Assembly (NCBI GenBank): GCA_035235625.1
Contig: CP141140.1
Location: 47,859,351-47,923,350, forward strand
Source of the DNA: Saururus chinensis
Lineage: Eukaryota; Streptophyta; Magnoliopsida; Piperales; Saururaceae
Length of the DNA stretch: 64,000 nucleotides
Reading direction: 5' to 3'
This document shows, piece after piece, positions 20,001 to 45,472 of this stretch (its first letter is position 1; every line of letters begins with the position of its first letter). Under the pieces are notes generated by a model. It was not told where the DNA came from. It did not search any database and worked only from the letters and a program-made list of their open reading frames with translations. The translations under genes were made by a program, and so were the position numbers.

Positions 20001-23000
20001 AGAGGTCGGGAAAGGAATAGGGCATAGGAAGGGAAGAGGGATAGAACTCTTTGACTCTGCACTAAGAGGATTATGCCAGAGTCTGCACCAAACGGAGATA
20101 AACTTACAGAGCCCGCACCATGGTTCGCAATATCAGAGATATATCTGTATTTGTCAACTGATTGAAACAAGATATGGGGCAAGATTATATTTTTTTTATG
20201 TATGCAAAATCTGAGATATATCTCAAATATTGGCAATATATATGAGATTATTGATCATGTTTTCTACTTGATAAATGTAATTTATGTTGGTATAATGAAT
20301 TCACATGGTGTTATGATGGCTTTAGATTAATATTAGAATTTTTAGATGTTAATGTATGCTTAGATTAACCAAATACTTGTAAAAACATTTTTCGGTCGCC
20401 AATACTTTATTCTCTCCAATATATCCTATCATTAAGTCACCAATAAAAGATAATGTGAACCATGGCCCATACTGGAAAGCATGGTCAGTCAGCACTGAAC
20501 ACAGGCAGAATTCATTTTAGAAGAAGCACATGTTAATAAAACTCCAAAGCATTGATTATTTTCATTAACAAACTTTCTACCTTGAAAGGGCTTGTATGAA
20601 AGGAGAGCATTGACTTTGATGAAATATTCTCACCCATGGTGAAGATGTCATCCATTCAAATCTTATGATTGGTAGCAAGTGTGGACTGAAAGGTTGAAGG
20701 ACCAAAAAAAAGTGGTCTTATTTTCATGTATATAAAGTGTACTTTAAATGAATTTACCTGGATACTCTCGCCCATGTTTGTTTTATACTTAATTCCTAAT
20801 TTTTGGGTAAATGATCTAAATGATATTATCAAATTAATAATGAAAAAAGAATATTTGATGAAAAGCTTGATTGGCATGTCTATCAGTAGAAGTCATACAT
20901 ACATTAATGGAAGAAATGGCTTCTCCAACCTTTTCAACCTAGCATTATCTCTACTCATTTCCTAAGGAAATGAACTTATTTTGATTTACAAACATGTTCG
21001 AGGAGACTCAGGGCTCCTCAGAGGCAATAGCAGATGCAGGCAAGGTTCTGCAATGACTCAAATTGATCACTTCAGCACTGCAGCCTAAAGGATTAAAGGA
21101 ATAAGATGGTCGATTTAGCAAATTGAGATGTGGGTAATATTTCTCATTACTAGGCTTGATCGCTATAGTGGGTTTGGACTGGTTGATGAGAAAAGGTAAG
21201 GGAGGGATTCTCATGGGGCAAAAATGGATGAAAGAGAACAATTAGTATTGTTGTAAAAGAGCAATAAAGTAAAGTTTGAGACATTTGAAGGTCTGGTTTA
21301 ATATAAAAATCTATGATTATGATTGTGACAGCAACTATGGTGGGGGATTCAAGAACATATGTGAGTTTGGTTAATAAGATTTAGTGATGGGTGACGTGGA
21401 GTGAAGATACTTACTAGATTTGAAGACATTGACGAAAACTGATTGTACAGGAAGATTGGGCTGAAGAAGGAGAGGAGTTGCAGGAAAGAGGAGAAAAGGT
21501 CAGTGAAGAAAGGAAGAAGTGGATGAAGCCAAACGTAATCCAAAGAGAGTGCTTGGAGCAACTAACAAACTTACTCAAAGAAACAAAAAGAAAAAAAATT
21601 ACATTCGTTGGGATCTAGGTTGTTACAATTAAACAGACTCCAAGGGTTGCAAATAAGGTAATTGCTGATTGTTACAAGACTCTCTAATTAACTTCTACAA
21701 TACTTATTGTGCACGTGCACTTGATTCATCACTTGTCTTTATTCCAGTACACTAAACTATTACTTCTGTTTATTTCAGTACATTAGGCTAGTTTCCCTTA
21801 TGTCAGTGGCCGAGTGGCATTGTTATTTAATTGTGAACTTGTGATAGGCACACTAGTGGACCACGAGATAACCAGGCCTACTAGCAACACGACTCCCAAT
21901 GTGGGAGGGCGCGACTCCCCATAAAGGGTCATCTCCCTCCTTGGTTCGGCATGCTTGAATATTAGTTTTACTCTTTTGTTATTTTACTACTTCTTCCTCT
22001 CTTCACTGCGTAGAACTCCTTGTGCCGATTGTGCCCACATCGGGCACATCATAAAGTTTTTTTCTTAGCATAACTCAATACAACAAATAGACTCTAAATA
22101 AAAATATATTCCTAAGTGTAGTTAGAGAAATGTCCCCTTCTGGCTGAAGTAGGGCATAGGAAGGTGAAGTGAATCTTCAAATATATTTGACGTTCCACAA
22201 AGGCATGTGTTGTCACCCTAAATTAGATTTAGATTCCTGTTTTAGTCTGATATCTAATAGTTAAACTCCTTTATTTAGAATTGGAATAAGGATTGTTTCC
22301 TTGTCCCATTCGAATTAATTTAAATTTTCTCTATATATTTTGTAATCCAGAGAAGATTAGGCATTCAGAAATCAAATTCAGAAGTTAGAATATTTTTAAT
22401 TTGTCTCTCAGTTATCCTTCTTCCCCCCTTTCTCCTTAATTATCCCTGTGTAGGCACCCTGGCCTACATCAGCATGCTTAATACTTTTGGAGGTGGTAAG
22501 GATTTGTTAGAAGAATATGCACATGTGGAGATGGATAAGACTTGAGTCAAGGAAATCTACTTCCCGTTACATATTCAGCTTTGTTGACGGAGCCATCTCA
22601 TAGAATTATAAATTGCAACAATGTGTTGCATTGTCCAGTGTGAAGACTGAGTACACCGTCATAATCAAAGCTTGCAACAAATTGTCATGAGTGAAGAGAT
22701 TCCTAAGTGAGCTAGGTATAAAATAAAACGTGTTGTCCATGATGACGGTAAAAATTGCATCCATGTCAGCATGAGTTCAAGTACTCTCTCTGGATCCAAA
22801 CACATCAATATGAAATAACATACATAGGGCGCGTGCTGAAAAAAAGCTCTTGGAGCTAAAGTAGATCCATACGGATAAAATGCTTAGCATATGATGACAA
22901 AAGGATGCGCCTGAGAAGAAGTATTAGTCATATAGAGGTTCAGCCAGAGTGGACGGTACTTGGCATGCTGTAGAGTGGAGGCCCAACTCATGATTCAAGA

Positions 23001-25930
23001 AGGGGAAGATATGTTGGGTCCATACTTATGTGGAGCACATATCTCAAGTATAGGGAGCCTACACCATATAGGTTTGTTATCTCCTTCCTAGTAATTCAAA
23101 TGACTCATACTTTCCAAAATTGAAGGGTCTGTTTTTGTAAAAAGTCAAAAGTTTTTAAAAAATATGATCAGCTTTCAAGTCAGTGGTGCTTGTTAAAAAC
23201 AAAATTGAAGCCTTTTTGCAATTGGAAGGAGAGAGCTCTTTTGGAAGAGAAGAAGACGCAAAAAAAGAAAGAGGGTCATTTTCTTCAGCTAAAGAACTTA
23301 GAAGAAATTCAAGAAGGATTCTGTTCGTGGTAACCCTTTTCTATTTTACCTTGTTTTCCATTACTTAGTGAGAAAGCAAGCATACTAAAAAAAGGGTTTT
23401 GCTTTGATGGTCTAAGCAATAGAAAATGTAATATCATGATGGATGAGTGTGGAAGATTAATATAACTTAGGTCCCATTTCCCACTTCACAGTGAAGGGCT
23501 GTAAACGTAAATCTTATATGTCTCCTAAGTGGTTGATGTTATGCTTCTTATAACACTTGATCTTGAGGAAATTCCACGAGAACATATTTAAATATGCAAT
23601 CTTTTGGCTGGCACAAATGAGCGAACGAAGAAGGCTTTCCCAACAATTACCTTCTAAAAACCATTTTTATTGTTAATTCAGACTCAAAGATGTCTTTTCC
23701 AAAAGCTGAACATTACAAATTCGTCAAGGAAACTTTTCACTCAACTGTCAAGTATATAATGTTATAATAAACTAGGAAAAAAGCATAAAAATTGATAAAG
23801 ACATCTACAAGAACGATTAATGCAGCCAATACCTTTCTTCATACATTCGGCGATATCATTTGAACTAAAAAGTTCCTCTTCACCCCTCCGATCAACCATC
23901 ACTTTTCTGTAATCTTCTAACATTAATGGAGCCAAAGCCTTGGTTGGATACTGTACTCAACATATAAAAACACCACATAAATAGGCATATTTCAATTCAA
24001 AAGAATATAAATATCAAATTCTTATTCCAATTTAATATAAGATACTGAAGCAGGAAGTCCAATAAGTCTAGCATGTAAATAGCACAATGCCAATCCCATA
24101 GCAAAATTGACAAGAACAAGACTACTTAATATTGAAAGCACTCGTGAAACCAAAAAAAATCATGGAAATCATATGAAAGGCTGGACAGAGCATGAGTCTA
24201 TGAGAAACACATGACGAGAACCAACAGGGTTTCATGGAATGGCCAGGACCACGCCTTAGGAAGCAGACATCCTAATCCCCACTCCATTGGCCACCAACAC
24301 AGGATAATATCCTGATTTACCCGGTGCGAATGATATGTAGGCCTTGTATGTGCCAAAAGGGGTTTGGCAGCAGGACACGGTGCCCTAAGAGGCCAGTTGC
24401 CCAGACACTTAAGACTCGGACACCCCTTATTATAAAAAAATAATGACAATCAATGTAAACATATGCAAGAGTAGTATCTACATAGCTGACCTAGTTAACT
24501 GGGATATGATGACGTTGACAACGATGGGGAAGAGAGGAGGAGGAACAAAAGAGCAGCATGGACAAATAAAGCTATCCAAATACTTCCCCATACACGGTGC
24601 ACCATCAAAGTTAAACTCAGACAGCATAAGAAAAAAAATTACATATATTCTTACTACCAGAATACATAAACAGGTCATAAGTAACCCAGCAAAGAAGCTA
24701 TAAGGGCGTCCAGTCAAAAATTGGAGAAATGCCCACTAGCCTCAAATCATATTAACAAATTTTGCAAAAAATTGGCGAAATTTTGCTATTTTTCGCAAAA
24801 TGGGCCTGAACCGAAAATTATTTTGAAATTTTGTCCATTTCGCTAATTTTTTGTAATTTCAAAAATTTCACAAAATTTACATTATCTGCAGGTTATTTTC
24901 GAGCATTTACATTTTAGGCAGGTAATTTTCTGATTTTAATGTTTTTGGAAGGATAATTTTTCTTTTTTTACGCTCAAGGCAAGATAATTTTAGATATTTT
25001 TTAAGGTTTGGGCAATTTATTTTTAAGTTTTTACATTTAAGGCAGTTCTTTTTTGCGTCTCCCTTATTCCTTATAGTTTTTCCTCCACCTCCTTCTTTTC
25101 TTCTTTTTACAGTTCGAAGCTTTCACAAAAAATTTCCCAAAACAAAATGAACAGAACCCTAAATGAACCCTCACCAAAACAAACCAAAATGCCGACTTTG
25201 TTACTATGGCCTCAATTCCTACATTTAGGCCGATTTGACATCCAGAAACACTTCTGAGGTCAGTATCCACACCAATTTAGTTTTGTAACAGCAAAAAAAA
25301 TCGGAACCTCCTCTCCCCTCCTGATCCCAGAGGAGACAGAAGAAGTCAACCAACTTTGCTAGAATCCAATTTCCCAGTTATAACAAATAATAGAAACCAC
25401 TAGAATCAACAAAACATTAAAATTGGTGCTGAAGAACGAGAATAAGAACGTTTATACCGTCATATAGATGGGGCCACGATATCCGCAGACCTCCGTGAAG
25501 TAGGGCAGTGCTCCCACATGATCCAAATGGCTGTAAGCATATAAAACTCCCCCGAATTTAAATTTCAAATAGTAGAAAGAAAGTTCAAATAAAAAAGGCA
25601 TCGAAGAATGAGTTCAAATGAGTGTTTACAAGTGGGTGATGATGATGCAGGTGAGGGCAGAGGTAAAATCTCCAGAGGAGGACGATGGGTCGAGCAGGCG
25701 GGAGAAATCAGGGTAGCGACGGTGGTCGAGGTAGCCCATGTGCATGCCGCAGTCGAACATGATCCGCTTCCCGCCGATGGAGACCACCACGCAGCTCTTC
25801 CCCACCTCTTGACCCGCACCTTAAGAAAAAGAAAGAGACGAAAATGGGTAATGAACTGTGACGAATGAGAGAGAAATAGAAGCATGAGAGAGACAGAGAG
25901 GAGACCAAGGACGAGTGTTTCGATCGCCAT
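7940..25930 (-). CDS. CPSF73-II: CPSF73-II / INTS11 homologue, exons 1-8 (5' part of gene)
   Basis: Plant homologue of Integrator subunit 11 and of cleavage/polyadenylation factor CPSF73-II, a nuclear metallo-beta-lactamase/beta-CASP endonuclease that cuts RNA 3' ends. Eight exons (25930-25906, 25819-25630, 25530-25458, 23950-23833, 19203-19130, 11974-11838, 8232-8169, 8005-7940) total 747 nt and join in frame into 249 codons without a stop. The protein starts [18 protein letters not shown]. Zn-site residues are all there: D31 (FDCGMH), H71-x-H73-x-D75-H76 (THFHLDH), H160 (YYAGH) and D181 (YTGDYN). The region entering the beta-CASP domain follows ([30 protein letters not shown]). All junctions are GT-AG. 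The family is about 600 residues long, so the C-terminal 60 percent lies left of the window. The frame is clean although the introns are full of transposons, so the gene looks functional. An intron total above 25 kb is notable. Confidence 0.95.
8169..8232 (-). CDS. CPSF73-II: CPSF73-II exon 7
   Basis: Acceptor TTCTGCAG, donor GTATGT. Completes E206 and encodes [20 protein letters not shown] and A227, matching the conserved ITESTY-x-T-x-R-DSK block of INTS11 proteins. Confidence 0.95.
8233..9689. other. intron 6 of CPSF73-II, part without recognised element
   Basis: AT-rich intronic DNA. Short words such as AGATCTCTACAAATCT recur with variations around 9110-9290 and 9560-9600, which may mark an old decayed element. 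No coding frame and no clear terminal repeats were seen. Confidence 0.5.
9690..10450 (-). mobile_element. LINE fossil (C-terminal end of reverse transcriptase ORF)
   Basis: On the minus strand, scattered frames match in order the tail of plant LINE ORF2. They are IDYMECNF (about 10400), VGGW-VEVE (about 10260), [19 protein letters not shown] (about 10110-10170), [10 protein letters not shown] and GKLREG-FSWFNHV (about 9945-10070), and VRKD and YVAYPHKMG (about 9790-9880). These correspond to the familiar EYMEC, LKGKFYKTTVRPAMLYG, EKMRE-RLRWFGHV and VADP blocks. Frames shift repeatedly and stops are frequent, so the copy is long dead. The 5' part of the LINE is not seen. Confidence 0.82.
10451..11837. 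other. intron 6 DNA with a possible LTR-like stretch
   Basis: The middle (about 10600-11480) contains repeated GATCGATC words (10785-10825), a TATA-box-like CTATAAATAG at 10936-10945 and a leader-like T-rich stretch. This resembles the layout of a copia LTR reading left to right. I found no matching ends and no target duplication, so this is only suggestive. Confidence 0.3.
11838..11974 (-). CDS. CPSF73-II: CPSF73-II exon 6
   Basis: Acceptor TTTCAAG, donor GTATGA. Encodes [20 protein letters not shown], then [20 protein letters not shown] and DLLIT (residues 161-205), with motif-4 ligand D181 in YTGDYN. It is separated from exon 5 by a 7.2-kb intron full of mobile elements. Confidence 0.95.
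11975..12800. other. intron 5 of CPSF73-II, distal part
   Basis: AT-rich intronic DNA with no recognisable exon, element or repeat. Confidence 0.5.
12801..13111 (+). repeat. 5' LTR of element 3
   Basis: Left member of the direct-repeat pair. It ends ...TACAACATCA at 13111, and GTATCAGAGC follows as a primer-site relic. The left limit is approximate. Confidence 0.7.
13520..14480 (-). mobile_element. inverted retroelement segment inside element 3
   Basis: This part reads on the minus strand, opposite to the LTRs around it. It contains a retropepsin-like block ([22 protein letters not shown]) that has a forward-reading counterpart at about 15895-16070. It is either an insertion of a related copy or an internal inversion. 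It is broken. Confidence 0.6.
14250..14276. repeat. GGTAAT hexanucleotide microsatellite
   Basis: About four copies of GGTAAT in a row in the inverted segment of element 3. Confidence 0.8.
16349..16665 (+). repeat. 3' LTR of element 3
   Basis: Right member of the direct-repeat pair. It begins near TCATGACATGCCTTAGG after the purine tract and ends ...TACAACATCA. No clear target-site duplication is seen outside it. Confidence 0.7.
16666..18011. other. intron 5 DNA
   Basis: AT-rich intronic DNA. Around 17575-17830 there are GTGAGGCA/TGAGGC words of a type common in degraded plant hAT-like elements, but I could not define ends. No exon was seen. Confidence 0.4.
18012..18860. mobile_element. TIR element (Tourist/Harbinger-like ends) filled with a triplet array
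   Basis: Inverted ends GGGTCTGTTTGGATTAGTG (left) and, reading inward from the right, GGGTCTATTTGGATTGGTG bound an 849-bp unit. Purine-rich arms follow inside each end (GAAGAAAAGGAAATG on the left and its pyrimidine complement on the right). GGGTCTGTTTGG ends are typical of PIF/Harbinger Tourist-type MITEs. The flanking triplets are CAA and TAA, close to but not a perfect TWA duplication. The interior holds an interrupted ACC/CAC array. Confidence 0.65.
18204..18718. repeat. degenerate ACC/CAC trinucleotide array (about 515 bp)
   Basis: Almost pure CAC/ACC/GCC/ACT triplets with interruptions. Long open frames on both strands here (Pro/Thr/His-rich forward, Gly/Val/Ser-rich reverse) are produced by the triplet repeat and are not genes. 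Confidence 0.93.
19130..19203 (-). CDS. CPSF73-II: CPSF73-II exon 5
   Basis: Acceptor CATGTCAG, donor GTAAGA. Encodes [20 protein letters not shown] and YYAGH (residues 136-160). H160 is the motif-3 Zn ligand and is the last residue of the exon. Confidence 0.94.
19204..21707. other. intron 4 of CPSF73-II, proximal part
   Basis: Intronic DNA. Around 20120-20245 there are imperfect palindromes built on GAGATATATCTC and ATATTGGCAATATATATGAG, probably a decayed MITE. Nothing else was recognised, and the open frames in this stretch have no family resemblance. Confidence 0.4.
21705..22051 (+). mobile_element. LTR-like fragment, same family as 28016-28350
   Basis: It shares TTGTGCACG near its start with the solo LTR at 28016-28350. 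Near its end it shares CACTGCGTAGAACTCCT (there CCCTGCGTAATTCTCCT) and the terminal GCACATCA. No matching target duplication is seen, so it may be truncated or diverged at one end. Confidence 0.6.
22208..22471 (+). mobile_element. small solo LTR with 5-bp TSD
   Basis: 264 bp running from TGTTGTCACC to CCTACATCA, flanked by GCATG on both sides (22203-22207 and 22472-22476). A TATA-like TCTATATATTTTG and a pyrimidine-rich downstream part fit an LTR reading left to right. Confidence 0.85.
22485..23100 (+). mobile_element. Ty1/copia fossil: RNase H end and start of 3' LTR
   Basis: Short frames match the end of copia pol, namely a VALSS-type RNase H block (about 22620-22660), KACNKL, FLSELG (about 22700-22720) and KHINM (about 22800). 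These equate to the family's VALSTTEAEY, SELGL and KHIDV blocks. A purine tract (AAGAAGGGGAAGATA, about 22998) and a TGTTGGG start of an LTR-like stretch follow at 23013. It is a broken fragment and the rest of the element is absent. Confidence 0.7.
23101..23832. other. intron 4 of CPSF73-II, distal part
   Basis: Intronic DNA adjoining exon 4. I recognise no element in it. Confidence 0.4.
23833..23950 (-). CDS. CPSF73-II: CPSF73-II exon 4
   Basis: Acceptor GAGTACAG, donor GTATTG. Encodes [20 protein letters not shown], then [19 protein letters not shown] (residues 97-135), a highly conserved stretch in plant CPSF73-II. It is separated from exon 3 by 1.5 kb and from exon 5 by 4.6 kb. Confidence 0.95.
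23951..25457. other. intron 3 of CPSF73-II
   Basis: 1507 bp. At 24740-24880 there is a self-complementary-looking stretch of GCGAAATTTTGC/GCAAAATTTCGC-type words, perhaps a decayed MITE. At 24200-24440 there is a GC-richer block with no recognised identity. No exon is needed or seen: exons 3 and 4 join in phase without it. Confidence 0.5.
25458..25530 (-). CDS. CPSF73-II: CPSF73-II exon 3
   Basis: Acceptor GCTTACAG, donor GTATAA. Encodes the end of F72, then [17 protein letters not shown] and PIYMT (to T96). It supplies H73, D75 and H76 of the HxHxDH signature and ends in phase 0. Confidence 0.95.
25630..25819 (-). CDS. CPSF73-II: CPSF73-II exon 2
   Basis: Acceptor TTAAG, donor GTAAAC. Encodes residues 9-72, from [19 protein letters not shown] through [18 protein letters not shown] to CIIITHF. 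It is strongly GC-rich at third positions, unlike exons 4-8. A short Ser run (DPSSSSGD, about residues 52-59) lies in a loop that varies in the family. The exon ends inside the Zn-binding motif, splitting codon F72. Confidence 0.95.
25906..25930 (-). CDS. CPSF73-II: CPSF73-II exon 1 (start codon)
   Basis: Encodes MAIETLVL plus the first base of G9. The ATG lies in a good context (GCAATGGCG) and is the family's usual start: plant homologues also begin MAI-x-x-LVLGAGQE. Donor GTCTCC follows. Intron 1 is 86 bp. Confidence 0.92.
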
Positions 25931-26150
25931 TGCTGAGAAGACGGGAGGATGGATGTGTACTCGAATGCATCTGAAGAAACGAGAACCCTACCGAAAACCC
26001 GCGCGCGAAAGGTTTACGGTTTGATAGTGCCGCTCGCAGCGTCGTCGCCCGCATGACGCTCGCATTGACGGATCGATCAAAATTTTGTGGAAATTTGGGT
26101 AACCACGGTTTAAAGTTTAAACACTCAAAATTCATTAATTACGAGAAAAA
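25931..26150 (-). promoter_or_regulatory. probable 5' UTR and core promoter region of CPSF73-II
   Basis: The region directly upstream of the start codon is CpG-rich at 25990-26070 (GCGCGCG, CGTCGTCGCCCGC) and is the only non-repeat sequence between the gene and the fold-back element that begins near 26150. I see no clear TATA box. The transcription start cannot be placed from sequence alone. Confidence 0.4.
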
Positions 26151-26500
26151 GTTTAGGAAAATTTATTTAAATAATAATTAAATAATAATAATTACCGTTT
26201 TGGACCACGTAGGCGCCAGCCAAGCAGGCTGGTGCCTGTGTGGCTTTTTTTTTATTTTTTTAGTCCTTTAAAATGACAAAATCGTGTCAAGTCTTTTAAA
26301 ACGTGACCCAATTTCATCCTTTAGAAGGAAGAAATCAACTTAAACCTGATTTTGTCAACTAAAAAAAAAGCCATGTAGGCGCCAGCTGCTTGGCTGGCGC
26401 CTGCGTGGCAAAAAGGAACACCACTTTGGGAAATATTTCCCAAAGTGGTCTAAAACGGTAATTTTTATTATTATTATTTAAATAATTTCCCCAAAAGTTT
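26150..26500. mobile_element. fold-back (long inverted repeat) element
   Basis: Two inverted arms. The left (about 26150-26250) contains TTATTTAAATAATAAT, TTACCGTTTTGGACCAC, GTAGGCGCCAGCCAAGCAGG and a T run. The right (about 26355-26500) is its reverse complement with an extra hairpin. Each arm also contains its own GGCGCC hairpin (26209-26233 and 26378-26401). It carries no coding sequence. It resembles a non-autonomous fold-back MITE, family not recognised. Confidence 0.75.
26420..26449. repeat. perfect 30-bp palindrome
   Basis: ACCACTTTGGGAAAT followed directly by its exact reverse complement, with no spacer. It lies in the right arm of the fold-back element and would extrude as a hairpin. 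Confidence 0.97.
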
Positions 26501-26569
26501 ATATAAAAAATTATTTAAATAATAATTAAAAAATATTTATTGGATCATATTTCTCAAAATGGTGTTAGT

Positions 26570-26885
26570 TTTTGTCACACAGACACTGTGGTGTTACTTT
26601 TATGTTTAAGTTAATTTTGTCATTCTAAACGATGAAATCGATTTAACGATTTATAAGATTTAATTTAATTTTGTCCTTTAGAATGGTAAAATCACCTTAG
26701 GGCGATTTCGTCCTTCTAAATGACGAAATTGTCATATATAGTGATTTTGTCCCTTAGAAGGATAAAATCACCTTATATAGTGATTTCGTCCTTTACATAA
26801 CTTTGCAACTCGAGAATGACATAAGTGGCTTATGTACTAATTTTGTCCTTTTAATGGACAAAATCAAATTAAATTTTTTTTAAAA
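26570..26885. repeat. run of degenerate hairpin units (GATTTTGTCCTT type)
   Basis: At least five imperfect inverted units, each of the form GATTTYGTCCTTYTAG followed by its complement AAGGAYAAAATC, at roughly 40-60 bp spacing with linkers such as ACCTTATATAGT. Single units also occur inside the fold-back element (26260-26370), so the two belong to one repeat complex. Confidence 0.75.
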
Positions 26886-27196
26886 GACTATTTTAAACTA
26901 ACTTTAACCCTTGTCCCTGTTCATTCATTCCACATATTTTATGCATAACAAACATAATATTAAAGTTATTTACATCAATTAATAAAAATAAACATAAAAT
27001 AGAAATATTTATCAAATACACCTTCTGTCTTATTTTAATAGCTCCAATAGAAAAAAATCATATTCTATATTAATTGCTCCATTCCATCCAATTTAAACCT
27101 TAAGAGCTCTACGGTGCTTCTCACTATGGAAAAATAACATCGTAAAACAACTCAAAAACATGCTACCATTTTTCATGGGCTTGTCTCTGGATTACC

Positions 27197-27420
27197 ATCT
27201 TTGGCCTCACCGTGTACGAGCCGCTCCTCCACCAAACCCTCACCGTGATGCCCTCCAGCTCTGTCTACACCATCTTTGTTGTCGACGATACCATGACCAC
27301 GCTGGTCCTGCACATCTCATCGTACACCCCCTGGAACTCGTCCAGCACCTACCCCACCACCTCCTCTCTCCTTACCCCCACCACTACCTTCACCAACGCG
27401 GCAGCGCCAACACCAGATGG
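27197..27420 (+). pseudogene. unrecognised coding-like fragment inside the TIR unit
   Basis: A forward frame reading LTVYEPLLHQTLTVMPSSSV, YTIFVVDDTMTTLVLHIS and so on has C or G at most third positions, as a real GC-rich plant exon would. I cannot name the family. It precedes the PUB17-like piece and may be part of the same or another captured gene. Confidence 0.35.
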
Positions 27421-27524
27421 TGGAGCCCACCCCTGGCCGCCGCCTCCCCAAGGGAACTTCCTGCAAGAAAAGGCAATCGGAAGGAACCGCCCCGCTCCCC
27501 ACTTGGCCGCTCCACTTCCTCCTC

Positions 27525-28540
27525 TACTGTCAGACTATTGCACTTCCCTCCTCGCCCGCAACATCTCCTCCTCCAGCCCCCCCAACTCCCGCCCCCTCTA
27601 GCGCCGCAATTCCCACTCCATCGTTCGCAAGGACAAGCTCCTCTCCCTCCTCTTTGAGAAGCTTTTACCAAAGCCTTCCGCCCACCGTCCCCTCTCTACA
27701 TTCACTACCCTCTGCCTCCAGGAGATCCTCATCGTCTTGCAGAAAATGAGAGCTCTCATAGACGACCTCTACAATAAAAGCAGGCTTTGGTTGCTCGTCT
27801 AGACCGAGTCCATCTCCAACACTTTCCATGAAGATGAGGTCGAGCTATCGACCATTCTCAACATTCTTCTCGTCGCTGATCTCCCTAGCTCTCTCTGAGG
27901 ACATTAGGGACCAGGTGTTGCTCATGAAGAGCAAGTACTGGAGGCATGTTGACCCCAATGACATGGCCCTCCGATCTAAGGTCCTTGTCATCATTGACGA
28001 CATCGAGCGCTAGGTTGTTGTGCACGATTGTGCATGCACGATGATCATACTCTCTCTTTTATTATTTTATGGCATTGAACTATTTATTTGTTATTGTAAT
28101 ACTTTATTATCGTACTGTGTTAGTGGCCCGGGATAGCCGACCCACTAACTGGGTTATTTTGTAAGAACCGGACCGGTCTGGTTCAGGTGGTCCTGTTCCC
28201 TAGGTGGTCGTCTCCTATATGGGGCGGCCTTTGCTTTTGGTTGGAGTTTATGCAAGTATAGAATTCCAGTTTCTCCCCTTTCTTCATTACTTCTCCCCTT
28301 TCCCTGCGTAATTCTCCTAGATATCGATCGTGCTTGCATCAAGCACATCATAGGTCGTCCCCGAACACCGCCGCCTCTCGGATATCTTCCAGCAAGTTAA
28401 GCTCCACGGCTCCAGAGCTTGCCAGACATAGATGAAGAACCTAAAGTCTGAGCTGGATGGCCAGGCGATCCCAGACAAACCAATGGCCACCATTGCGACA
28501 CTCACTGGGCTCGTGCAATATGCCAAATGAGTGCTGTTTG
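27525..28540 (+). pseudogene. PUB17-like U-box E3 ligase gene fragment (N-terminal UND region)
   Basis: Frames match in order the N-terminal U-box-N-terminal (UND) region of PUB17/ACRE276-type plant ubiquitin ligases. They are SIVRKDKLLSLLFEKLL, then LCLQEILIVLQKMRALID, KSRLWLLVQTESISNTFHED (its seventh-last residue position varies), then SEDIRDQVLLMKSKYWRH and VDPNDMALRSK. After the inserted solo LTR come LKSELDGQAIPDKPMATIAT and LTGLVQYAK-VLFGAST. It is a dead host-gene fragment, with in-frame stops (TAG in the WLLV-TES stretch near 27800, TAG near 28408, TGA near 28529), a frame change near 27893, and no U-box or armadillo repeats. Intact family members are about 700 residues, of which about 230 are represented. 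It sits inside the Stowaway-like TIR unit. Confidence 0.75.
28016..28350 (+). mobile_element. solo LTR inserted in the PUB17-like fragment
   Basis: 335 bp from TGTTGTGCAC to GCACATCA (inverted ends with one mismatch), flanked by TAGGT at 28011-28015 and 28351-28355. The U-box-type frame continues on the other side. It shares start and end words with the LTR-like piece at 21705-22051. It is younger than the gene fragment it interrupts. Confidence 0.88.
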
Positions 28541-28634
28541 GGGCCTCGACCCCCCGCACACCCCGCAACTCTGACGCTATGGAGCCACCCACAGAGGTTG
28601 TCGTCCTACCAAACTCCGGTGCCCAATATAGGTT

Positions 28635-28772
28635 TTACTTCCATGATTGGAGGGCGAGCTTTGCAGATGGGAAGGATGGCTCGCTGAAGTCGAGGAGGAC
28701 GTGAGCATGGTTGATGAAGAAGCCATCGTCGGAGAGGCGGTAAAGGGCGAAGAGGGGCTTGGATGACTCCCC
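28635..28772 (-). pseudogene. unrecognised 45-residue coding-like fragment, minus strand
   Basis: Minus-strand frame GESSKPLFALYRLSDDGFFI, NHAHVLLDFSEPSFPSAKLA, LQSWK, then TAA. Nearly all codons end in C, T or G with strong C preference, the pattern of a true GC3-rich exon, while the plus strand reads poorly. I do not recognise the family. Upstream sequence (to about 28828) continues coding-like in a shifted frame. It is probably a second captured fragment in the TIR unit, opposite in direction to the PUB17-like piece. Confidence 0.5.
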
Positions 28773-29054
28773 ATGTACTTGGAGTCGTGGAAGGCTCCCG
28801 ACCTGGGTTCACAAATCACAGCAGGCAAATAAGCAATAGTGGGCTTGGCAGAGAGATAGGCATCACTTAGTCCTACTGAACACGAAGATGCGGGAGTTTT
28901 ATTATAGTTATATTTACGTGAGACTTAATATACAATAAAAATTATAAAAATGAGAAATGGAGCTATTAAAATAGGACGGAGGGAGTATATTACATCACAT
29001 GTTAATAAAATGTTTGTTTAAAAAAAACATATAACAAAGCTAATACACTCAATG

Positions 29055-29450
29055 TCACAATCTCCTACGTCCTTGACCTCAACCTCGACGGTGTTGTATG
29101 AGCTCCTCCTCATGATCTGCCTGCTCCGATTCTAGCTCTTGCTCCGGATGTGGCTCTGGCTCTGGTTCATCATAAGTAATAGATGGCTCAACACGAGCTG
29201 GCCGATATCATCTATGATATAAAATCGAATCTGGCTGAGCTACATGTGTAGTGACCGGAAATGATGAATGGGGAGGAGAGCTATGCACTGCTAATGAAGA
29301 TGGAATATCATGAAATGAATCATCAATAGGATAATGTGTATGAATGTCTGTAATCACCAACTGAAGCAGTGGCAAGCTATGAAAGACATCATCATGATCC
29401 CTAAGCATCGATTGACATGATGCTAACAAGTCCTCCCCGATGTATAGGTG
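29055..29450 (-). pseudogene. C-terminal tail of the MULE1 PMD protein
   Basis: Minus-strand frame with LPLLQLVITDIHTHYPIDDS, followed by EPEPEPHPEQELESEQADHE and QGRRRL and then TGA at 29055-29057. It is an acidic Glu/Pro stretch ending in a short Arg/Gly-rich tail, the usual end of these transposon-borne proteins. The same LPLLQLVITDIH block recurs in MULE2 at about 41220-41270. Intervening sequence to the PMD (29450-30429) contains intron-like AT-rich stretches and further short conserved pieces. Confidence 0.7.
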
Positions 29451-30428
29451 TTAATTGCATCAGTTAAATGCCCATGTGTACGTCGCACTAAACGAACCTA
29501 TAAAAAAATAAATTAAAGATTAGATAACTTATAAATAAGAAATAAGAAAATAATATTATACAATTAACAAAGTTATACTTACCAAAGCTGCCTCAGACAC
29601 ACCCCTAGGCTGATATGACATCTCCTCCACATCATCGTGTGGTAAAATATATCATTGTGTAATCGGTAAATACCATTGCATATATGTGCTACGAACATCT
29701 CACGATGTTGTAGTCATCTCCCCATGGATAATAGTGACTCTCCTATCCTCCCATCAAGCGATATATGATACATGATGTGTAGCCCAATCCGTAATATGGC
29801 GGCCTTATCAAGTTATGCGATGGACAAACTCGACAATAGAAGGTGGGACCACTTACTCCAGGTTAAACTGGAGCATTACACGATCTGGCACATACATCTC
29901 TACAATCTTGTAACATATCAATGACATTCACAATAGCCACACTTCCTGACCATCGGTGCATATAGGAGGTAACGCAGCCAATATTTCCAGTAAATACGAC
30001 TGCCAAGTAACCTATACAATATATCAAGATAATTAAGTTTAAATAAAATTACATATTTTATAATCATAACAAAAAAAGTTCAACATAAAATAAAATTACT
30101 TGATAGGGCCGATGGTGGTCTAACTCCCCTCTATATAATCGAATGACTCCTTGTGGATTTTTTGTTCTCCTTTTCCGAACATTCCACCTTAAGGAGTTAA
30201 AATTTAAAAATAAGTCCAGCATAAGTAAATAAAACCTTCCTACAAAAATTTAATTATTAAAAATAAATATCCCCTACCTCGCTCCTAATGGAGCACCCTT
30301 GACTAAGTGATGACCCATCTCAATACTTGGTCGACTGATGTGTAAATGCTCCCATGACCATAACTATGTCACAGCATATGATTAAAGTTATTAAAAAAAA
30401 GTAAAAAATTATACGTGCAAAAACATAT

Positions 30429-31362
30429 TTAAGTGATGAAATCATTTACCTGAAGAAGGGTCAGACATCCAGCAATCCCAAAAGTCATGGCGTGACATGC
30501 TTTCCCCAACTCTTGGTATAGAAATACAAGTGTAGCACTGCCCCATGAATAAGCACCCGCTATGTCGAAGTCTGCAAGGAGGGAGAGATATGCCACGTGT
30601 ACATGACTGCTTATGGTATTCGCAAATATTATGGCCCCAAGTAAATATAATAAATAAGCCTGTGCATGCTGCTCGATAACTATCTTTGTAGTATCGGCTG
30701 GGAGCTCACAAAACTCACCTAAGAGCCATTGAAGGCTAACTCGGCTACCACGCATGGATGTAGCAAAAGGAGCTCTACCAAGGAGTCTAACTAATAAGTC
30801 TAAGTGACCTCTTTTTGACATGTCCATCATAGGAAGTCCATTGATGTGAAGTCCTAAGAGAACTGCCACATCCATAAGTGTGATGGTCATCTCTCCATAG
30901 GGTAGGTGAAACGTATGTGTCTCCCTCCATCTCTCAATGAGAGCTATCAATAAAGGCCGATTGAGACGGATGTACTATGGATGAATAAAATGTCTAAATC
31001 CTGCCCTCCATCTCTCAACGAGAGCTGTCAATAAAGGCCGATTGAGACAGATGTACTATGGATGAATAAAATGTCTAAATCTTGCCCGCTTGATATACGG
31101 TAACATATGCTCATCTACAGGCCAATGGTGGAGATATCTAAAATATTCGGTGCACTCAAGGCACCCAGGGTCCTATAATAAATTTTAAAATTTTAACCCA
31201 ACATAATTTATAATCTTAAAAAGTGAAACAAATTTTAAAAAGAGTTATCATACCTCTCTTCTCCAAATAGAAGCCGACCTATGTGACTCCTACTGTACAA
31301 GTACACTGTCATCAATCGGGCCTAGCCCGTAAGAAGGCTCTACATGATCCATATGATCTGTG
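30429..31362 (-). pseudogene. plant mobile domain (PMD/MAIN-like) coding region, copy 1
   Basis: Plant mobile domain of the MAIN/MAIL type. The first exon (31362-31256) reads MDHVEPSYGLGPIDDSVLVQ and SASIWRRE. A GT-AG intron at about 31255-31173 is followed by DPGCLECTEYFRYLHHWPVD (about 31110-31172) and then the core ERWRETHTFHLPYGEMTITL, MDVAVLLGLHINGLPMM and WLLGEFCELPAD. The last open stretch (30950-30429, 173 codons) is intact. Stops occur upstream, one in each copy of an 81-bp duplication. PMD proteins act in silencing and development in plants. In transposons the role is unknown. Confidence 0.87.
30923..31084. repeat. 81-bp tandem duplication inside the PMD
   Basis: Two adjacent 81-bp units (30923-31003 and 31004-31084), nearly identical, each encoding the FRHFIHP...NRPLL-AL-ERWR segment on the minus strand. 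81 is a multiple of three, so the duplication keeps frame. MULE2 has only one unit here. Confidence 0.93.
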
Positions 31363-31447
31363 GAGAATTAAGAGCATATCATCAATCATTAGGAACATAG
31401 AATCATACCTAAAATAGAGAATAAATAAAAGATTGATTATATATTTA

Positions 31448-32868
31448 CCAATCAACGAGAGGGTTTCTACATGATTTACTATTATGCCCACTTTGTTTAC
31501 ACCTCCTGCATTTATATCCTCCTCTACCATCTCTCTCCATAGTTCTATGGTCCATTGTATTCCTAATGCGAATAGACCGTGGGTGACCAGGTTGCCTTAT
31601 TGCTCTTAAGGGTATAACACAAAAGGTATATCCCTCTCCCAATAATCCCAGCAACGAGGAGAATAAAATTCTGCCAAGTACACATTTTTATAAGTGGAAG
31701 ATATGTAAAACAATGATGCTTGTATCAGCTCCCAATGATTTGCCCACACGGCAATAAGGTGCGAGCAAGGATAATAATAAACTTGAGGGATGTTGCATGT
31801 ACAAGTATGCATCGCCGCATTTACTACAACCATCTGACCACGAATTGACATCACTTCGTACTGACCGCTGTTGATCCTATTAACTATATACTCCCCAATT
31901 TTTCTTGTTTGTTCTCTAATTATCGCTTCCACTCGGGGAGTATATGGGGTGGCCATGGTAGATGTAATAGAATATTGTTTCACAAAAAATTTTATGACCC
32001 AATAAAAAATAGTTGACACTAAATCCTACATGGGTAATCCTCGGGCCCCCTTCAAGATGTTATTTAAACTTTTTGCTATATTTCTAGTCGTCATGCCAAA
32101 TCTCCTAAAATTATCGTAAGAGACCACTGTGTAGGATGCAATTCTCCTCCTAAAAGGAGATGTTCTGCCCTAGGACTCTCCTGACCAATCAAGTCCATTT
32201 TAGCATCAAACTTTTCTACTGTAAGTGCACAAGTTGCTGCCCCAATCAAGTCCGTCAATGTATCATTTTTAAACTCCTTAAAATTTGCTTTTATGTGACA
32301 GATGCAATAACGATGGTGGTACATAGGCTCCGGAAGAACCTCTGGCATGGCCTTTTGAAGCCCCTTATGTCGATTTGAAATGACAACGATGTTTGTCATG
32401 CCCATCAGTACATGATCCCTTAGTTCCATTAAGAACTATTTCTAATTCTCTCTATCTTCTTCTCTGACAAGCCCGAATGCTAGAGGAAATAACCCATTGT
32501 TTCCATTTATAGCCGTTGTAGCCATAAGAGCACCAAGATACCTGCCATACAAGTGAGTGGCATCAACACCAATCACAGGGATGCAATGTCGAAACCCCGC
32601 TATAGACGGCCCAAATGCCCAAAACAACTGCTTAAATCTCCTACACATGCCAACATTTGCACGAGGTACTTCATCATCCTCTAAGCAGTAGTGGGTGTCA
32701 GGAATCACTTCTTGCACTACCTTGAGGTACATTGGCAACAATTTATATGATTCCACCCAATCCCCATAAATAGCCTTGATCGCCAAATTCCTTGCTGCCC
32801 ATGCTTTTTTATAAGATATGTCAACATGAAACTTCTCCTTCATTCTTTAAATAATATCCCTTGGTATA
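31448..32868 (-). pseudogene. MULE transposase (DDE core, SWIM, CCHC), copy 1
   Basis: Cut-and-paste Mutator-family transposase. The N-terminal part seen is MKEKFHVDISYKKAWAARN. The first catalytic Asp lies in the block PVIGVDATHLYGRYLGALM (about 32545-32600). The second region, ISNRHKGLQKAMPEVLPEP with HHRYCICHIKANF, lies at 32270-32390. The SWIM finger is CTCNIPQVYYYPCSH (about 31745-31800, CxCx..CxH) and the zinc knuckle is CRRCKQSGHNSKSC (about 31465-31510). The reading frame is broken by a stop near 32430 and frame changes near 32090 and 31620. A likely natural end or splice donor follows NPLVDW at about 31448 (G-GTAAAT). The missing N-terminus means it could not bind its ends. Confidence 0.88.
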
Positions 32869-35461
32869 AATAAATGAAATAAAGAATTAATTGAACCGGG
32901 TCCAGTTCAAGGGGGTATGTGTTAAAAAAAATAGAAAAATTACCAATTGACCTTAAGAGGGAGACGACTGTCCTGACTAAATTCCAGGTCAGGGGAAAAA
33001 TAAAAAAAGTATGTGAAATGACTGTTTTACCCCTAGTAGTTAAGTTATCGTGTGATATTCACTTACCTGACTTAGGGGCTCCCGTTCAATGGACTATGAG
33101 TGATCTTAAAAACTCAAAAAATTCTCAGTGAGATATTAATGGGTATCCTAAATATAGGCTAAACCACTTAGTGAGAAAAATTCCCAGTGAGTGGTTAATT
33201 GACCATTTTGTCCGTAGGGTTTATCGTAAACTGTTAAGTCCACCTGGGTCAGTTCAAGGGGTTCACGACTTCGTCACATGCCAGGAAAATTGCACAGAGT
33301 CCATGAAGTCAAGTAGTACCCTTAAGTTCAATTTTGGACCCAATGGATGTTAGTAATGCTTTAAACCAAATGACAGAAATACCCCTTTGAGAGGACTGCT
33401 TGCGTAGGGTGCGAATGGAAGCACGAGTCAGTTTGAGATAGGAGCCTTGTGGGATGTCAATGACTTAAAATCAATATAAGGGCAGTGAAAAGACCAAAAT
33501 GACCCAAGGGAGGGTATCATACCCTAGGTGGTAGAATTGCCCTAATGCGCTTAAGGGCAGTATATTCCCTTTCCGCTGAAACGGATAACCTAGTTAACCA
33601 AGAGTTAAGGTACCCTAGAATGACGTTTAATGGCTTCAAAAAGAAAGGGTGCAACCAATAAGTGACACGAGGACCTTAACAAGTCACAGTGTCAAAGGAA
33701 AATAGAGGGAAAACCTTAATTTTTAGGGTTTAAGGCAGCATATTACATGTGTCTGCAACCCTGTACATCAATCAACTAGAGTATTAAATACATAACTCGT
33801 GCGATATGTTAGAGTTATCTAGATTATCAGGCTTGAATTTGCTGAGCCCTAGCCCTGCAAATGAGTGCAATGGGCCTTTATTTATTATTTATGCACTTGT
33901 ATGACTGCATGTTATTTTATGTTAATTATTTTGATGCATAATTTATTATTGATGCATTAATCAGTAACTTAAGGTTAACAAAGACTAATAAGAGATATTG
34001 GTTTAAGGTTAACGAAGACTAATAAGAGATATTGGTTGTCTTTCGATTTAGGGGAGAACACATAATTAAGATAAAGACTAAAATACCCTCCTTAGGGTTG
34101 GGACCAGTTCATGGAGTGAAAGGGACCCTAACATAAAATTTTACTTTAGTTAATGAACCGAGAGTGGTTATAGGAGTTCACTTGAGTCTCAAGGAGACTA
34201 TTAGGATTTGGGTTGTTCTCTGAGTCATAGCTCAGTGGATGAGCTATTTGTTGGGTTGATTCACAAGGTGAAGAGGATCCAAGTGGTTGGACAAATACTT
34301 GACTGGATGAAAATAATATACTCTAATTTTCAGAAGTTTGGGGGAGTCAATGGTCATAAAGAGCTGAGGCTTCTATGGATAAATTAGTAATATTTTAAAA
34401 GACTTTTTCTCTCGAGTTGGGGAATGGTGGAGATTGCAACACGCTTCTTCATCGCCACGATGGTTTTGGTATTGACCAGTGGGTCTTTACTGCAGGTCTC
34501 CCGCAGCTCTTCCCAGGACTATATAGTACATATGAAAAGCAAAGTTGTATGAGCATCATGGAAGGCTTGTGCTTCTCGCCAATATGTGTCCACGAACACA
34601 ATTGGGATCCTCTTCTCCAGATTCATGGCAGGCTATTGAGAGCCATGAAGATTTTGGTCAAGCTTTTGTTAAACAGTCTACTCTAATGTTGGAGTCTTTT
34701 GTCTAGAGATTTCTCGAGGGGCGAGTATTCTCCGAATGAATACACATTGATAGTATTAATTATTGAACAAGGGTCGTGAGATAATTAATAGCATTATTTG
34801 ATATTACTTGTTAATTAGACAAATGAAATGATTAAAGGAATTGCATAAAATGTAGGTTGTTTGAAAATACTTAAGCATTGCATGTGTGATGTTATGCTTC
34901 TTAGGATAGTGTAGTTTTAGGCAGAACTACGTCTAGATCCGATCTTGTTGGAAACATTAAAGATGTTGTCTGATGAGTATGTAGGCTACTAACATCGGGT
35001 GATGTTGGCCCGATCCAAAAAATATTAATTAAATCTTTTGCCCCTTTGGAAGCTCTTATCCTGAAGGCAGAAAGGTTCAATTGTTGTTGTTGTGGTTGTT
35101 TCAGTTTGGTTGGTTACAAATTCTCTAGGCGATGACAAGTGAGACCAGGAGGTGAGCACAAGATGAAGTTTTTCGTGTTTGCAACTCTGATACGTAAGCA
35201 TATCTTTAGCATTAGGGTCAACTTGTGATTTATTTTTAGACGGATGACGGACTTGTACTTAAATGGATAGGCTATTCTTTGTGGAATTTTCATACGTGTA
35301 ATAATGTCATATGATTTGATATTCGTATTTGTGAACCATAGTTATCATGACTTGGAAATTCAATCGAATGGTTTGTTTTATATTTAAGAAAAGAAAAAAA
35401 AATTCTCGTGACTTATCGTTTGTGCTATTTTAAAAGGCTTTTAAAAATCCGAGTCGTGACA
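32869..35461 (+). mobile_element. long-LTR family 1 fragment, copy A
   Basis: 2.6 kb of the LTR1 family in forward direction. It shares GAACCGGGTCC and the whole central part with copies B, C and D, and ends at the family terminus ...TTAAAAATCCGAGTCGTGACA. It joins MULE1 at its left without the family's other terminus. GCCGC, the first five bases after it, belongs to copy F. Probably a Ty3/gypsy long LTR. No coding region. Confidence 0.82.
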
Positions 35462-36181
35462 GCCGCGAAGGCTGCCAAAGCCAGGGCCGCCACGGTCAGG
35501 GCCAAGGCCAGTGTGGCTCCCTTCCTACCATTGTTCTGGTGACCGGAGAATCAAATTAATGTTACATAATTACGTGAACAATATATGTAGAAATCACTAT
35601 TAACATAATTTTTAATAAAATTAGCTAACTAATTCCCTACTAATCTCAACTCGAAATCCTACCTTAATGACCGAGTTGTTGTTGATCCACCACTGTTGGA
35701 GCCTTGCTTGTGTCTGGCCAAAAAATTTCAATGACGGCTCCTCCTCCTTCCCTTAACAGTCAAAATATAACCCCCTTCTATTAGCCCTAATTAGCCTTCT
35801 TATAAGCATGAGGATTAGGGTTCCTAATCCCCTTAGGTGTTGGGCTAAATAGTCTACTTGGGCCTATTTTTTTTTAATTTCCATCACCATAAATAATCAG
35901 GCCCGTAAAGTGACTTAAAAGGCCAATTTACGCATCCAATTTGGGTAAACGGGTCTAGTGTGCTATAGTCACCTTCAAACCGTCATATCTCCCTCATCTA
36001 AACTTTGATTTGCACATTCTAGGTAGCGTTTCAAAGCTTTTTCTGTCTACTTTGTATCCTTAAATGTTCTAGCACCAATTCCAACTGATGTTCAAGTTAT
36101 TCTCATGAGAAGTTTAAGGGTCTAACACCTTAATTTCCACATGGTCGACTTCGGGAATTTAGAAAATTCCCGGATGTTACA
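35462..36181 (-). mobile_element. LTR1 fragment, copy F (terminal part)
   Basis: 720 bp matching the last part of complete copy C (48380-49100) in the same orientation, ending at CGGATGTTACA. It has the subterminal hairpin CGGGAATTT-AGA-AAATTCCCG. Confidence 0.82.
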
Positions 36182-36661
36182 CTACCTAGGGAGTAAAGCT
36201 AGAACTTGGTCATAATACTCCCACACCTCTTGGTTTCCTTGAGTATTTTTATAGAATTTTTTTAACATTTTTACCACCGTGAACTGAACCTGGTTCACTT
36301 CTACTATTTTCTTTTATATATTTTTTAACCTCGGATGAGTCTGCAATTCCAACCCAGAATGGGCCGAACCCGGATACCCGCCTGCGGGTCGTCTTCCCCG
36401 TGGAGATGACTGCAGGGCTGCGGGTGGCACTTGGATTGAATCCAGCCGCCGCCAGTAGGGCTCTCCAATTTGGGTAAACAGCCCCTACGTGTTATAATCA
36501 ACTTCAAAAGATTGTATCTCTCTCATTCGAACTCCGATTCGCACATTTTTGGTGTCGTTTTGAAGCATTGAATAAGTTATTCATATGAGAATGTCAAGGG
36601 GTCCAACACCCTAATTTCCCATGGTCAACTTCAGGAATTTAGAGAATTCCTGGACGTTATA
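36182..36661 (-). mobile_element. LTR1 fragment, copy G
   Basis: Mid-part (ACTTGGTCATAATACTCCC, and CTGAACCTGGTTCAC close to the GAACCGGGTCC word) plus a terminal part of LTR1, ending GGACGTTATA at 36661. GCGGC follows. Confidence 0.75.
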
Positions 36662-39582
36662 GCGGCCGTGGATTTGGCTGCTGTTGTGCAGTCTGCCGGT
36701 TCATCGCATAAGAAAAAAATAGTAGAGGATTTCAGCTCTCGGCAATGCGGAGGCAGCCAGGGGCGGGTTGTGGAGCCTGGGCCTCCAGAACAGCTAGATG
36801 ACGGTAATTCGGTTAGTCCCAAGATGTTTCCCAGCCATGGTGGCTCACCATCACACCGATGAGTTGATTGAAAAAAAGGGTCCCCTTTCTGCCCCGGCTA
36901 GCCACCGGGGCAGGGCGTGTCATAAACGCCATGAGGCGGCGATCCAATTTCTCCTAGCCCTAGCTACACCGCGGCGGCCTGGGGTGGCACCACTAGAGGC
37001 TAGTCGGAATCTAGCCGGCTATGAAGAGGATGACCCTCATAGCGGGTCATCAGGTTCAACATGGGGCCAGGCCGGGTGATCCGAATCGTCCGACCCTTTT
37101 TTTTTAAAAGGAAATAAAAGAAGGGTTGAACCGGGTCCGTTTCATTAGGATAAAAATGTCAAAAAAATTAATCGTGGACCCTGAGAGGGGTGGGAGTATT
37201 CTAGCCAAGCTTCAGCTTAGGAAAAAATCTTAGAGACTATGAAATGACCCTTTTACCCTGATAGTTAAATTATCGTATAATATTAACTTAGCCAAGCTCG
37301 AGGCTCTGGTTCAGGGGCCTATGAGTAAAAAAATTAAAGAAATTTTCAATAAGATCTTAATGTGTGCCCTGAGTATAGACTAAACCACATAGTGAGGAAA
37401 AATCCCATTGAGTGGGTAATTGACCCTTTTGTCCTTAGGGTTTATGGTAAACCATTAAGCAAACCTGGGTCAGTTCAAGGGGTTCATGACCCCATCACAT
37501 GCCAGGAAAATTACACCGAGTACATGAAGCCAAGTAGTAACCTTGAGCCTAATTATGGACATATTGGTTGTCAATAAGGCTTTAAACAAAATAATAGAAA
37601 TACCCCTTTGAGTGGGCCCGCTCACATTCGTGTGAATGGAAGCGTGGGTCAGTTTGAGAGTGGAGCCTTCTGAGAGGTCAATGACTTAAAATAAATAAAA
37701 GGGTAGTGAGATGACCAAATGACCGAAGGGAGAGTACCATACCCTAGGTGGTAAAATTACCCTAATGCCCTTATAGGCATTATGTTCCCATTTTTACCAA
37801 AATTATTAACCTAACTACCAAGCATTAGGGTACGCTATAGTGATGTTAAATAGCTTCGAAAGGAAAGGTTGTGACCAATAAGTGACACGAAGACCTTGTC
37901 AGGTCATAGTGTCATGGGGAACAAGGAGAAGAATTCTAACTCTTAGGGTTTAAGGCAGCGTATTACATGTGTGCGCAACCCAATGCATCGATCAACTAGA
38001 TTATTATATACATAACTCGTGCGATGCATTAGAGTTAATTACACACTCATGCTTGAATTTGCTGGACCCTGGACCTACAAATGAGTGAAACAGGCCTTCA
38101 ATTATTATTATGTACTTGTATGTCTGCATGTTATTTATGTTGATTATTCTAATGTATGCTTTTATTATTGTTGCGTTAAGTTAAATCGGTAACTTATGGT
38201 TAATGGAGAACATCTAATGAAGATATCATGGAGTGAACAGGACCCCGGCATAGAATTAACCTTGGTTAATGAACTGAGGGTGGTTATGAGATGTTCTTTG
38301 AGACAACTCAGTTGATGAGCTATTTATTTGGCCAATTCACGATGTTAAAATGACCCAAATGGTTGGGCGAATACTTAACTTGATGAAAATAATTGAGTCT
38401 TTGTTTCATATGTTGGGGGAATCAATGGTCATAACGACCTGAGACTTCTAATTATACATTCATAATGTCTTAGAAGACATTTTCTCCCTGAGTTGGGATG
38501 GTGGAGATTGTGATACGCTTTCTACACTGCTACGACAGTTTGGGTATTGGCCAGAGAGGTCTCTACCGCAGATCTTCCGGAGAGTTGGGTATTGGCCAAA
38601 GAGGTTTCCACCGTGGGTTTCCTACTGGTATTCTGAGGACCATATAGTATGTACGAAAACAGAGTTGTATAAGCATCATGGAAGGCTTGTGCTTCTTGCC
38701 AATTTGTGTCCATGAGCACAGTTGGGATCCTCTTCTCTAGATTCGTGGCAGGCTATTGAGAGCCGTGGGGATTTGGATCAAGTTGTTGTTAAGTAATCTA
38801 CTCCAATGTTGTAATCTTTTGTCTGGAGATTTCTTGAGAGTCGAGTTATCTATGAGTGAATACATATTTGATAGTATTAATTATTGAACAAGGGTTGTGA
38901 GATAATCAATAACATTGTTTAATAATGCTTGTTTATTAGACAAGTGGAACGATTAAATGACTTGCAAAAAATATAGGTCGAAAATATTTAAGCATTGCAT
39001 GTGTGATGATATATATGCTTCTTAGGATAGTATAGTTTCTAGGCAAAACTATGTCTTGATCCGATCTTGTTGGAAACATTGGAGATGTTGTTTGATGAGT
39101 ACGTAGGCAACTAACATCGGGTGATGTTGGCTGAATCCGAAAAACATTAATAAAACCTTTTATCCTTTGGAAGCTCTTCTCCTAAGGGCAGAGAGGTTCC
39201 ATTGTTGTTGGGGTGATTGTTTGGTTTTGTTGGTTGAGGTTCTCGAGGCGACAACAAGTGAGACTGACATTGACCAGTAGAGGATGAAGTTTCTTCGTTT
39301 CTGCAACTCCAGTACGTAAGTGTATTATTAGCGTGAGAGTCAACTTAGTTATTTATTTTCAGGTAGATGATGAACTTGTACTTCGATGGATGAACTATTC
39401 TTATTGAATTTTGAGACGTGTAATAATATTATACAGTTTGATATTCGTATTTGTGAACTCCAGTTATCATGACCTGGATATTTAATTAAATGGTTCATTT
39501 TACCCTTAAGAAAAAGAAAACATTTCTTGTGATTTACTGTTCGTGCTATTTAGAAATGCTTTTAAAAATCCGGGTTGTGACA
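36662..39582 (+). mobile_element. LTR1 fragment, copy B
   Basis: 2.9 kb of LTR1 in forward direction, from the GC-rich central part (reverse counterpart at about 62240-62330 in copy D) to the terminus ...TTAAAAATCCGGGTTGTGACA. It aligns with copy A over its last 2.5 kb. Confidence 0.83.
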
Positions 39583-44000: not shown

Positions 44001-44434
44001 GGTAGAAGAATGGCGGGGGAAGAATCTTAGGCACGACCTTCTAAAGCCCCTTACGTTGATCTGAAATGATTGCGACATTTGTCATATCCATAAGTACATT
44101 ATCCCTCAATTCACTTAAGAACTATTTCCAATTATCATAATCTTCCTTTGCTACTATCCTGAATGTTAGAGGAAATCGCCCATTGTTCCCGTCTGTAGCC
44201 GTTGTAGCCATAAGAGCTCCTGGATACCTGCTGTACAATTAAGTGGCATTCACACCAATCACCAGGATGCAATGTCAAAACCCCACTATAGGTGGCCCAA
44301 ATGCCCAAAACATCAGCTTAAATCTCCGATATGGGCCATCATCTACACTAGTTACTTCATCAAACTCCAACTTGTAGTAGGTACCGGGATTAAGGTACAT
44401 TGGAAATAATTTGTGTGATTCAGCCCAATCCTCC
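41098..44434 (-). mobile_element. Mutator-like element with plant mobile domain, copy 2 (MULE2)
   Basis: Collinear with MULE1 in the same orientation: C-terminal tail block LPLLQLVITDIHGHYP (about 41220-41270), PMD region (about 42300-43090, decayed), CCHC and SWIM region (about 43240-43766, CTCNSPQVYLYSCSH) and transposase core (about 43800-44434). It is more decayed than MULE1 in the transposase. It lacks the last part of the tail at the left, where copy H begins, and the N-terminal part at the right, where an inverted MULE fragment begins. Confidence 0.85.
43491..43766 (-). pseudogene. SWIM zinc-finger segment of MULE2 transposase
   Basis: An open stretch of 91 codons: EGLIREQTSKIGEYIINRIS, then MHERRIVVNVVRHTCTCN and QVYLYSCSHLLAVWGK. 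The SWIM pattern CxC...CxH is intact. It corresponds to 31745-32019 of MULE1. Confidence 0.85.
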
Positions 44435-44921: not shown

Positions 44922-45472
44922 TGTCATGCCCGAGGTTTTTCCCTACATTTACCATAAAATTTTCCTAAAATTTTGTTTCAAAATACATACTTAAATCAAA
45001 GGAAAACATAAAATTTCAGAAGTGTGAAAATGATTTTCATAAATTAATTTATCTTACAACAAACCAACATTCTCAGGCGTGACCTAAAATGAAAACATAC
45101 AAATAAAACCTGCCATGGCCATGGGCTTAAAAAAAATAAATACCTCACATGCATCTCTGAGTACAAGTTCTTTAAAATAAATTGTACATACATACATACA
45201 AAAGTCTAGTAAAATAAGACATTTACTCCCACCTTAATCAAAACATGAGATCGTGGCACCAAAATCCTTATAATCTCACTACGACTCCGCTACACTTACG
45301 GTTGAGGAAGAACTGTCCACCATAGAAAATAGTCCTCTCCAAAAAGCTATTGATCAACTTGCGAAAGCCTCTAGATGAAGGGGCTAAAAAATAGGGTAAG
45401 TGAGTATTTTCATACTCAGTAGGAAAATACCTAGTATGAAAAACAAGTCAATGAACTTTGTAAGTTCATACA

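Follow-up and report, generated by a model that had tools for sequence, protein, structure and literature searches.

A Stowaway-ended unit enclosing a decayed PUB17-like fragment in Saururus chinensis, a candidate Pack-Mariner element

The window is the whole stretch of DNA that was analysed, 64,000 nucleotides of Saururus chinensis contig CP141140.1 (assembly GCA_035235625.1, positions 47,859,351 to 47,923,350 of the forward strand), and all coordinates given here are positions within it. At 27019-28985 the window contains a unit of 1,967 bp with Stowaway-type inverted ends, a TA dinucleotide on either side and a GC-rich interior (Table 1). The sequence close to the left of the unit (26195-26877) is AT-rich, with short repeats and overlapping palindromes built around ATTTTGTCC...AAAAT. 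On its right side the unit is followed by a Mutator-type gene, which is encoded on the minus strand and has a plant mobile domain (E = 3.7e-59) and a MULE transposase domain (E = 2.7e-14), and a direct tandem duplication of approximately 81-84 bp, 95 % identical, is found in the region of this gene at 30923-31087. The stretch 29239-32769 is duplicated at 41106-44437, approximately 75-77 % identical in three pieces (the first being 29239-31004 against 41106-42872). This second Mutator-type copy, from 41106 on, provides no empty site for the unit, because the unit stops approximately 250 bp short of 29239, where the alignment starts. Several long repeats lie at 33000-39590, 45460-47820 and 59570-64000 in both orientations, with identities of roughly 65-90 % (among the best 20 of 45 direct families and the best 25 of 49 inverted pairs); they probably stem from one or more transposable elements.

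Table 1 Features of the Stowaway-ended unit and its interior
Feature	Position	Strand	Basis
TA, left target-site duplication	27017..27018	.	sequence directly
Left terminal inverted repeat, 28 nt, Stowaway type	27019..27046	+	arm pairing, end search, sequence
AT-rich left terminus, 31 % GC	27019..27176	.	change-point 27177
Degenerate repeat of the inner part of the left end, 17/20	27066..27085	+ (as left end)	sequence comparison
PUB17-like fragment, first part (PUB10_N-like), with stops and one frameshift near 27895	27602..28015	+	Pfam, reading frames
TAGGT, target duplication left of the solo LTR	28011..28015	.	flank identity
Solo-LTR-like insertion, 335 bp	28016..28350	.	TG...CA ends and 5-bp flanks
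TAGGT, target duplication right of the solo LTR	28351..28355	.	flank identity
PUB17-like fragment, continuation, with three stops, the first within the target duplication	28351..28578	+	reading frames
57-codon open stretch, no better than chance	28638..28808	-	reading frames, Pfam, shuffles
AT-rich right terminus, 25 % GC	28897..28985	.	change-point 28897
Right terminal inverted repeat, 28 nt, exact CTCCCTCCGTCC start	28958..28985	-	arm pairing, pattern match, sequence
TA, right target-site duplication	28986..28987	.	sequence directly

Stowaway ends have the consensus start CTCCCTCCGT, and terminal inverted repeats with a start of this type are present at both borders of the unit, exact in the right end, from which the left end differs at 4 of 28 positions. 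The arms at 27016-27046 and 28958-28988 are complementary at 27 of 31 positions, and the two 28-nt ends match at 24 positions. At three of the four differing positions the left end has T and the right end has C, which would make the left end the decayed one, since T-for-C changes are expected from decay. The best 31-nt inverted pair in any of 40 dinucleotide-preserving shuffles of 26500-29500, with pairs at least 1 kb apart, reached 23 matches. When the window was searched on both strands with the right end, only the two ends themselves were recovered at up to 8 mismatches, a single further place, at 50912 with 9 mismatches, was added at up to 11, and the next-best 31-mers in 25001-31000 have 13. 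The inverted pair is real, because its 27 matches exceed the 23 reached at best in the shuffles and because the window holds no further end of the subfamily at up to 8 mismatches. Both ends face outwards and the TA target-site duplication of Stowaway and Tc1/mariner elements is correctly placed at each border, TA being a weak signal in an AT-rich flank. The TA-flanked inverted ends of Stowaway type noticed in the preliminary description were thus confirmed. The right end carries CTCCCTCCGTCC with 0 mismatches and is the sole exact occurrence among the 47 matches in the window at up to 3 mismatches. The number of such matches in 1-64000 is itself high, with a shuffle mean of 21.6, a largest value of 34 and none of 100 shuffles reaching 47; other Stowaway subfamilies or DNA rich in C and T may account for the surplus. 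The 23-letter end pattern had no match in collections of prokaryote and virus contigs, which contain no plant genomes.

Base composition changes near both ends, with change-points at 27177 (support 27159-27204) and 28897 (support 28893-28901). Outside the LTR described below, GC content is 31 % in the left terminus (158 bp), 56 % in the interior and 25 % in the right terminus (89 bp), so delimiting a GC-rich insert of approximately 1.4 kb (LTR excluded). Inward of the 28-nt ends, the termini are only weakly alike, with a score of 21 over roughly the next 92 nt against a mean of 15.9 in 300 mononucleotide shuffles, 11 of which scored at least as high. The left terminus also contains the degenerate repeat of the inner end part listed in Table 1; the full 31-mer at 27051 has 13 mismatches and its outer half is not recognisable, and the copy is possibly a subterminal repeat or a relic of a second end.

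The interior had been described as containing a PUB17-like fragment, and with some reservation we also read a decayed fragment of this kind within the unit. A joined read of 243 letters, in which X was placed at five stops, one frameshift near 27895 was joined by eye and the LTR was left out, matched Pfam PUB10_N (PF25368) with E = 3.2e-5. The alignment covers profile positions 1-119 of 124 and read letters 31-142, wholly before the LTR. The match speaks for the fragment; its 25 bits lie below the curated cut-off of 32.6, the read was joined by hand, and the unjoined 66-aa and 39-aa pieces had no Pfam match, which together weaken the assignment. The continuation at 28351-28578, which follows the LTR and lies outside the Pfam match, presumably resembles grass PUB17 proteins just upstream of the U-box. 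No U-box was found in the unit by Pfam search of the joined read and six single-frame reads, and with its stops and frameshift the fragment lacks the open frame with a U-box of a functional PUB17-like ligase. When the whole interior was read in six single frames, no PUB match was obtained either, the only hits, DUF3796 (E of 0.029) and dsrm_Ferlin (0.03), being taken as chance. Searches of the 243-letter read against solved structures, a set poor in such plant proteins, returned nothing at E up to 1, and the 66-aa piece matched by pattern 50 stretches in viral contigs, a collection without plant genomes, of which none was confirmed.

The PUB17-like fragment is split by a 335-bp segment with TGTTG...CATCA ends and TAGGT on both flanks. 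It is the sole TG...CA segment with identical 5-bp flanks when starts in 27961-28080 and ends in 28251-28400 are considered, and a solo LTR inserted into the fragment is the best interpretation of these features. Once the LTR and one TAGGT are removed, the plus-strand frame from 27903 continues across the junction in frame, with three stops, one at the LTR junction and two beyond. The LTR and one target copy thus account for 340 bp of the interior that are not captured gene. The window contains no further copy of the LTR (E up to 1e-3). This insertion does not appear in the preliminary description.

A further coding-like piece had been proposed on the other strand, where it corresponds to the 57 codons near 28638-28808. 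It was dropped as a second captured gene, since 35 % of 500 shuffles had an open stretch as long as the longest minus-strand one in 28351-28880 (100 codons; shuffle mean 93) and neither the 57-aa nor the 105-aa minus-strand read matched a significant Pfam family (best E of 0.033 for the former, none for the latter). On the plus strand, an open stretch of 146 codons in 27161-27600 was reached by 16 % of 500 shuffles and had no Pfam family; it is not shown to be coding. As in Pack-Mariner elements, no transposase was found inside the unit, no such family being matched by six single-frame reads at E up to 0.1, a method that is insensitive to badly broken genes.

A host-gene fragment enclosed by Stowaway ends is the simplest reading of this anatomy. 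We give a little better than an even chance to the unit being a Pack-Mariner element, a non-autonomous Stowaway-type member of Tc1/mariner that captured host DNA as cargo. The ends, the TA dinucleotides, the exact CTCCCTCCGTCC, the PUB10_N match, the LTR with its continuing frame, the GC steps near both ends, the lack of a transposase match inside and the published model with its rice examples were counted for this reading; the PUB10_N score below the cut-off, the join made by eye, the weakly alike termini and the cheapness of TA in AT-rich DNA were counted against it. On this reading the entire unit would have been mobilised together. Two neighbouring Stowaway ends may have come to act as one unit, or, by an alternative route, one Stowaway element may have been interrupted during gap repair; the host DNA would then have moved as cargo, with a mariner transposase supplied from elsewhere, and the cargo would have decayed without selection. 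In the model set out in PMC8903248, neighbouring insertions with compatible ends are mobilised together with the intervening DNA, the example being rice Pack-Mariner cluster 217, and this two-neighbour model fits the unit because of its two outward-facing ends and what may be a leftover inner-end copy at 27066. The 17/20 match of that copy fits a fusion of neighbours and is no proof of the route. That the PUB17-like cargo is transcribed and gives rise to small RNAs acting on an intact PUB17-like donor gene is very improbable.

The termini could instead be two Stowaway remnants of one subfamily, each truncated and independent of the other, that flank a PUB17-like pseudogene fragment by chance, with no joint transposition of the stretch at any time. 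We regard this as unlikely, though it deserves serious weight: the termini share little past the 28-nt ends, which themselves differ at 4 of 28 positions, and the flank scans, in which single-frame reads of 28988-33000 and 23000-27016 showed no PUB or U-box families at E up to 0.01, are unable to rule out further PUB17-like remnants and say little about them, because single-frame reads missed the fragment inside the unit too. Against it, both ends face outwards with TA in the right place, no partner end lies near either terminus, and since the 64 kb contain no other end of the subfamily at up to 8 mismatches, it would take a coincidence to place two of them 2 kb apart. Nor is there any indication of two complete MITEs of the subfamily, because partner ends are missing near both termini. 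Distinctly less probable is a Stowaway MITE of approximately 250-300 bp that was hit by a gene-carrying element, such as a Pack-MULE, a Helitron, a hAT element or a retrocopied pseudogene. The AT-rich termini would suit it, totalling 247 bp, which is a normal MITE size. In rice cluster 217, the mean length of the non-Pack group is 311 bp (PMC8903248). An 8-bp direct repeat, TGGGCTTG, occurs at 27176 and 28840, the only two plus-strand copies in the window, and its left copy sits at the left GC step; however, chance would supply approximately 0.7 such 8-mers between the two zones (an estimate that assumes even base composition), and the right copy (28840-28847) is about 45-60 bp off the right GC step at 28893-28901. 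Exact direct or inverted repeats of 9-12 nt are absent between 27041-27260 and 28741-28965, and by eye no poly-A run is present at the insert junctions. The Pack-Mariner reading is retained here as a probable, if far from certain, account of the unit.

The gene-capturing Stowaway/mariner element of the preliminary description accordingly stands as regards its ends, its TA flanks and, with reservation, its PUB17-like fragment, and is given up as regards a second captured piece and its novelty. The argument that gene capture is much less documented for mariner/Stowaway elements was out of date, Pack-Mariner elements having been annotated in rice and maize in PMC8903248. That study gives 642 mariner elements with Stow ends for rice and 52 for maize, and Pack-Mariner elements are among them, more in rice, mostly at low copy number, with one providing an exon of a rice gene. 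The available parts of PMC11560428 and PMC6696609 contain nothing bearing on gene capture by Stowaway elements. The unit is thus a candidate further member of a kind known since 2022 from rice and maize (PMC8903248). If it moved as a whole, it would join the plant cases already reported in which mariner-superfamily elements captured genes, with a rather long cargo; it gives no sign of a working gene and no new mechanism.

Compared with the Pack-Mariner elements in PMC8903248, which are mostly of low copy number, the unit is alike in being apparently non-autonomous and in having Stow-type ends, TA duplications and what may be an internal host-gene fragment, and differs from them in the single copy visible in the 64-kb window, the decayed cargo and the nested solo-LTR-like insertion. 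The stretch captured in rice cluster 217 is 260-280 bp (PMC8903248), whereas the GC-rich insert here is approximately 1.4 kb. With PUB17-like plant U-box ubiquitin ligases the interior shares a probable N-terminal PUB10_N region, but it is a fragment only, with no U-box, five stops in the joined read and one frameshift. The TA flanks and CTCCCTCCGT-type ends are those of Stowaway MITEs, which are a few hundred bp long, whereas the unit is approximately 2 kb and has a putative GC-rich gene fragment inside. Pack-MULEs also carry a gene fragment between inverted ends, but the ends and the 2-bp TA duplication of the unit are of mariner type and not of Mutator type.
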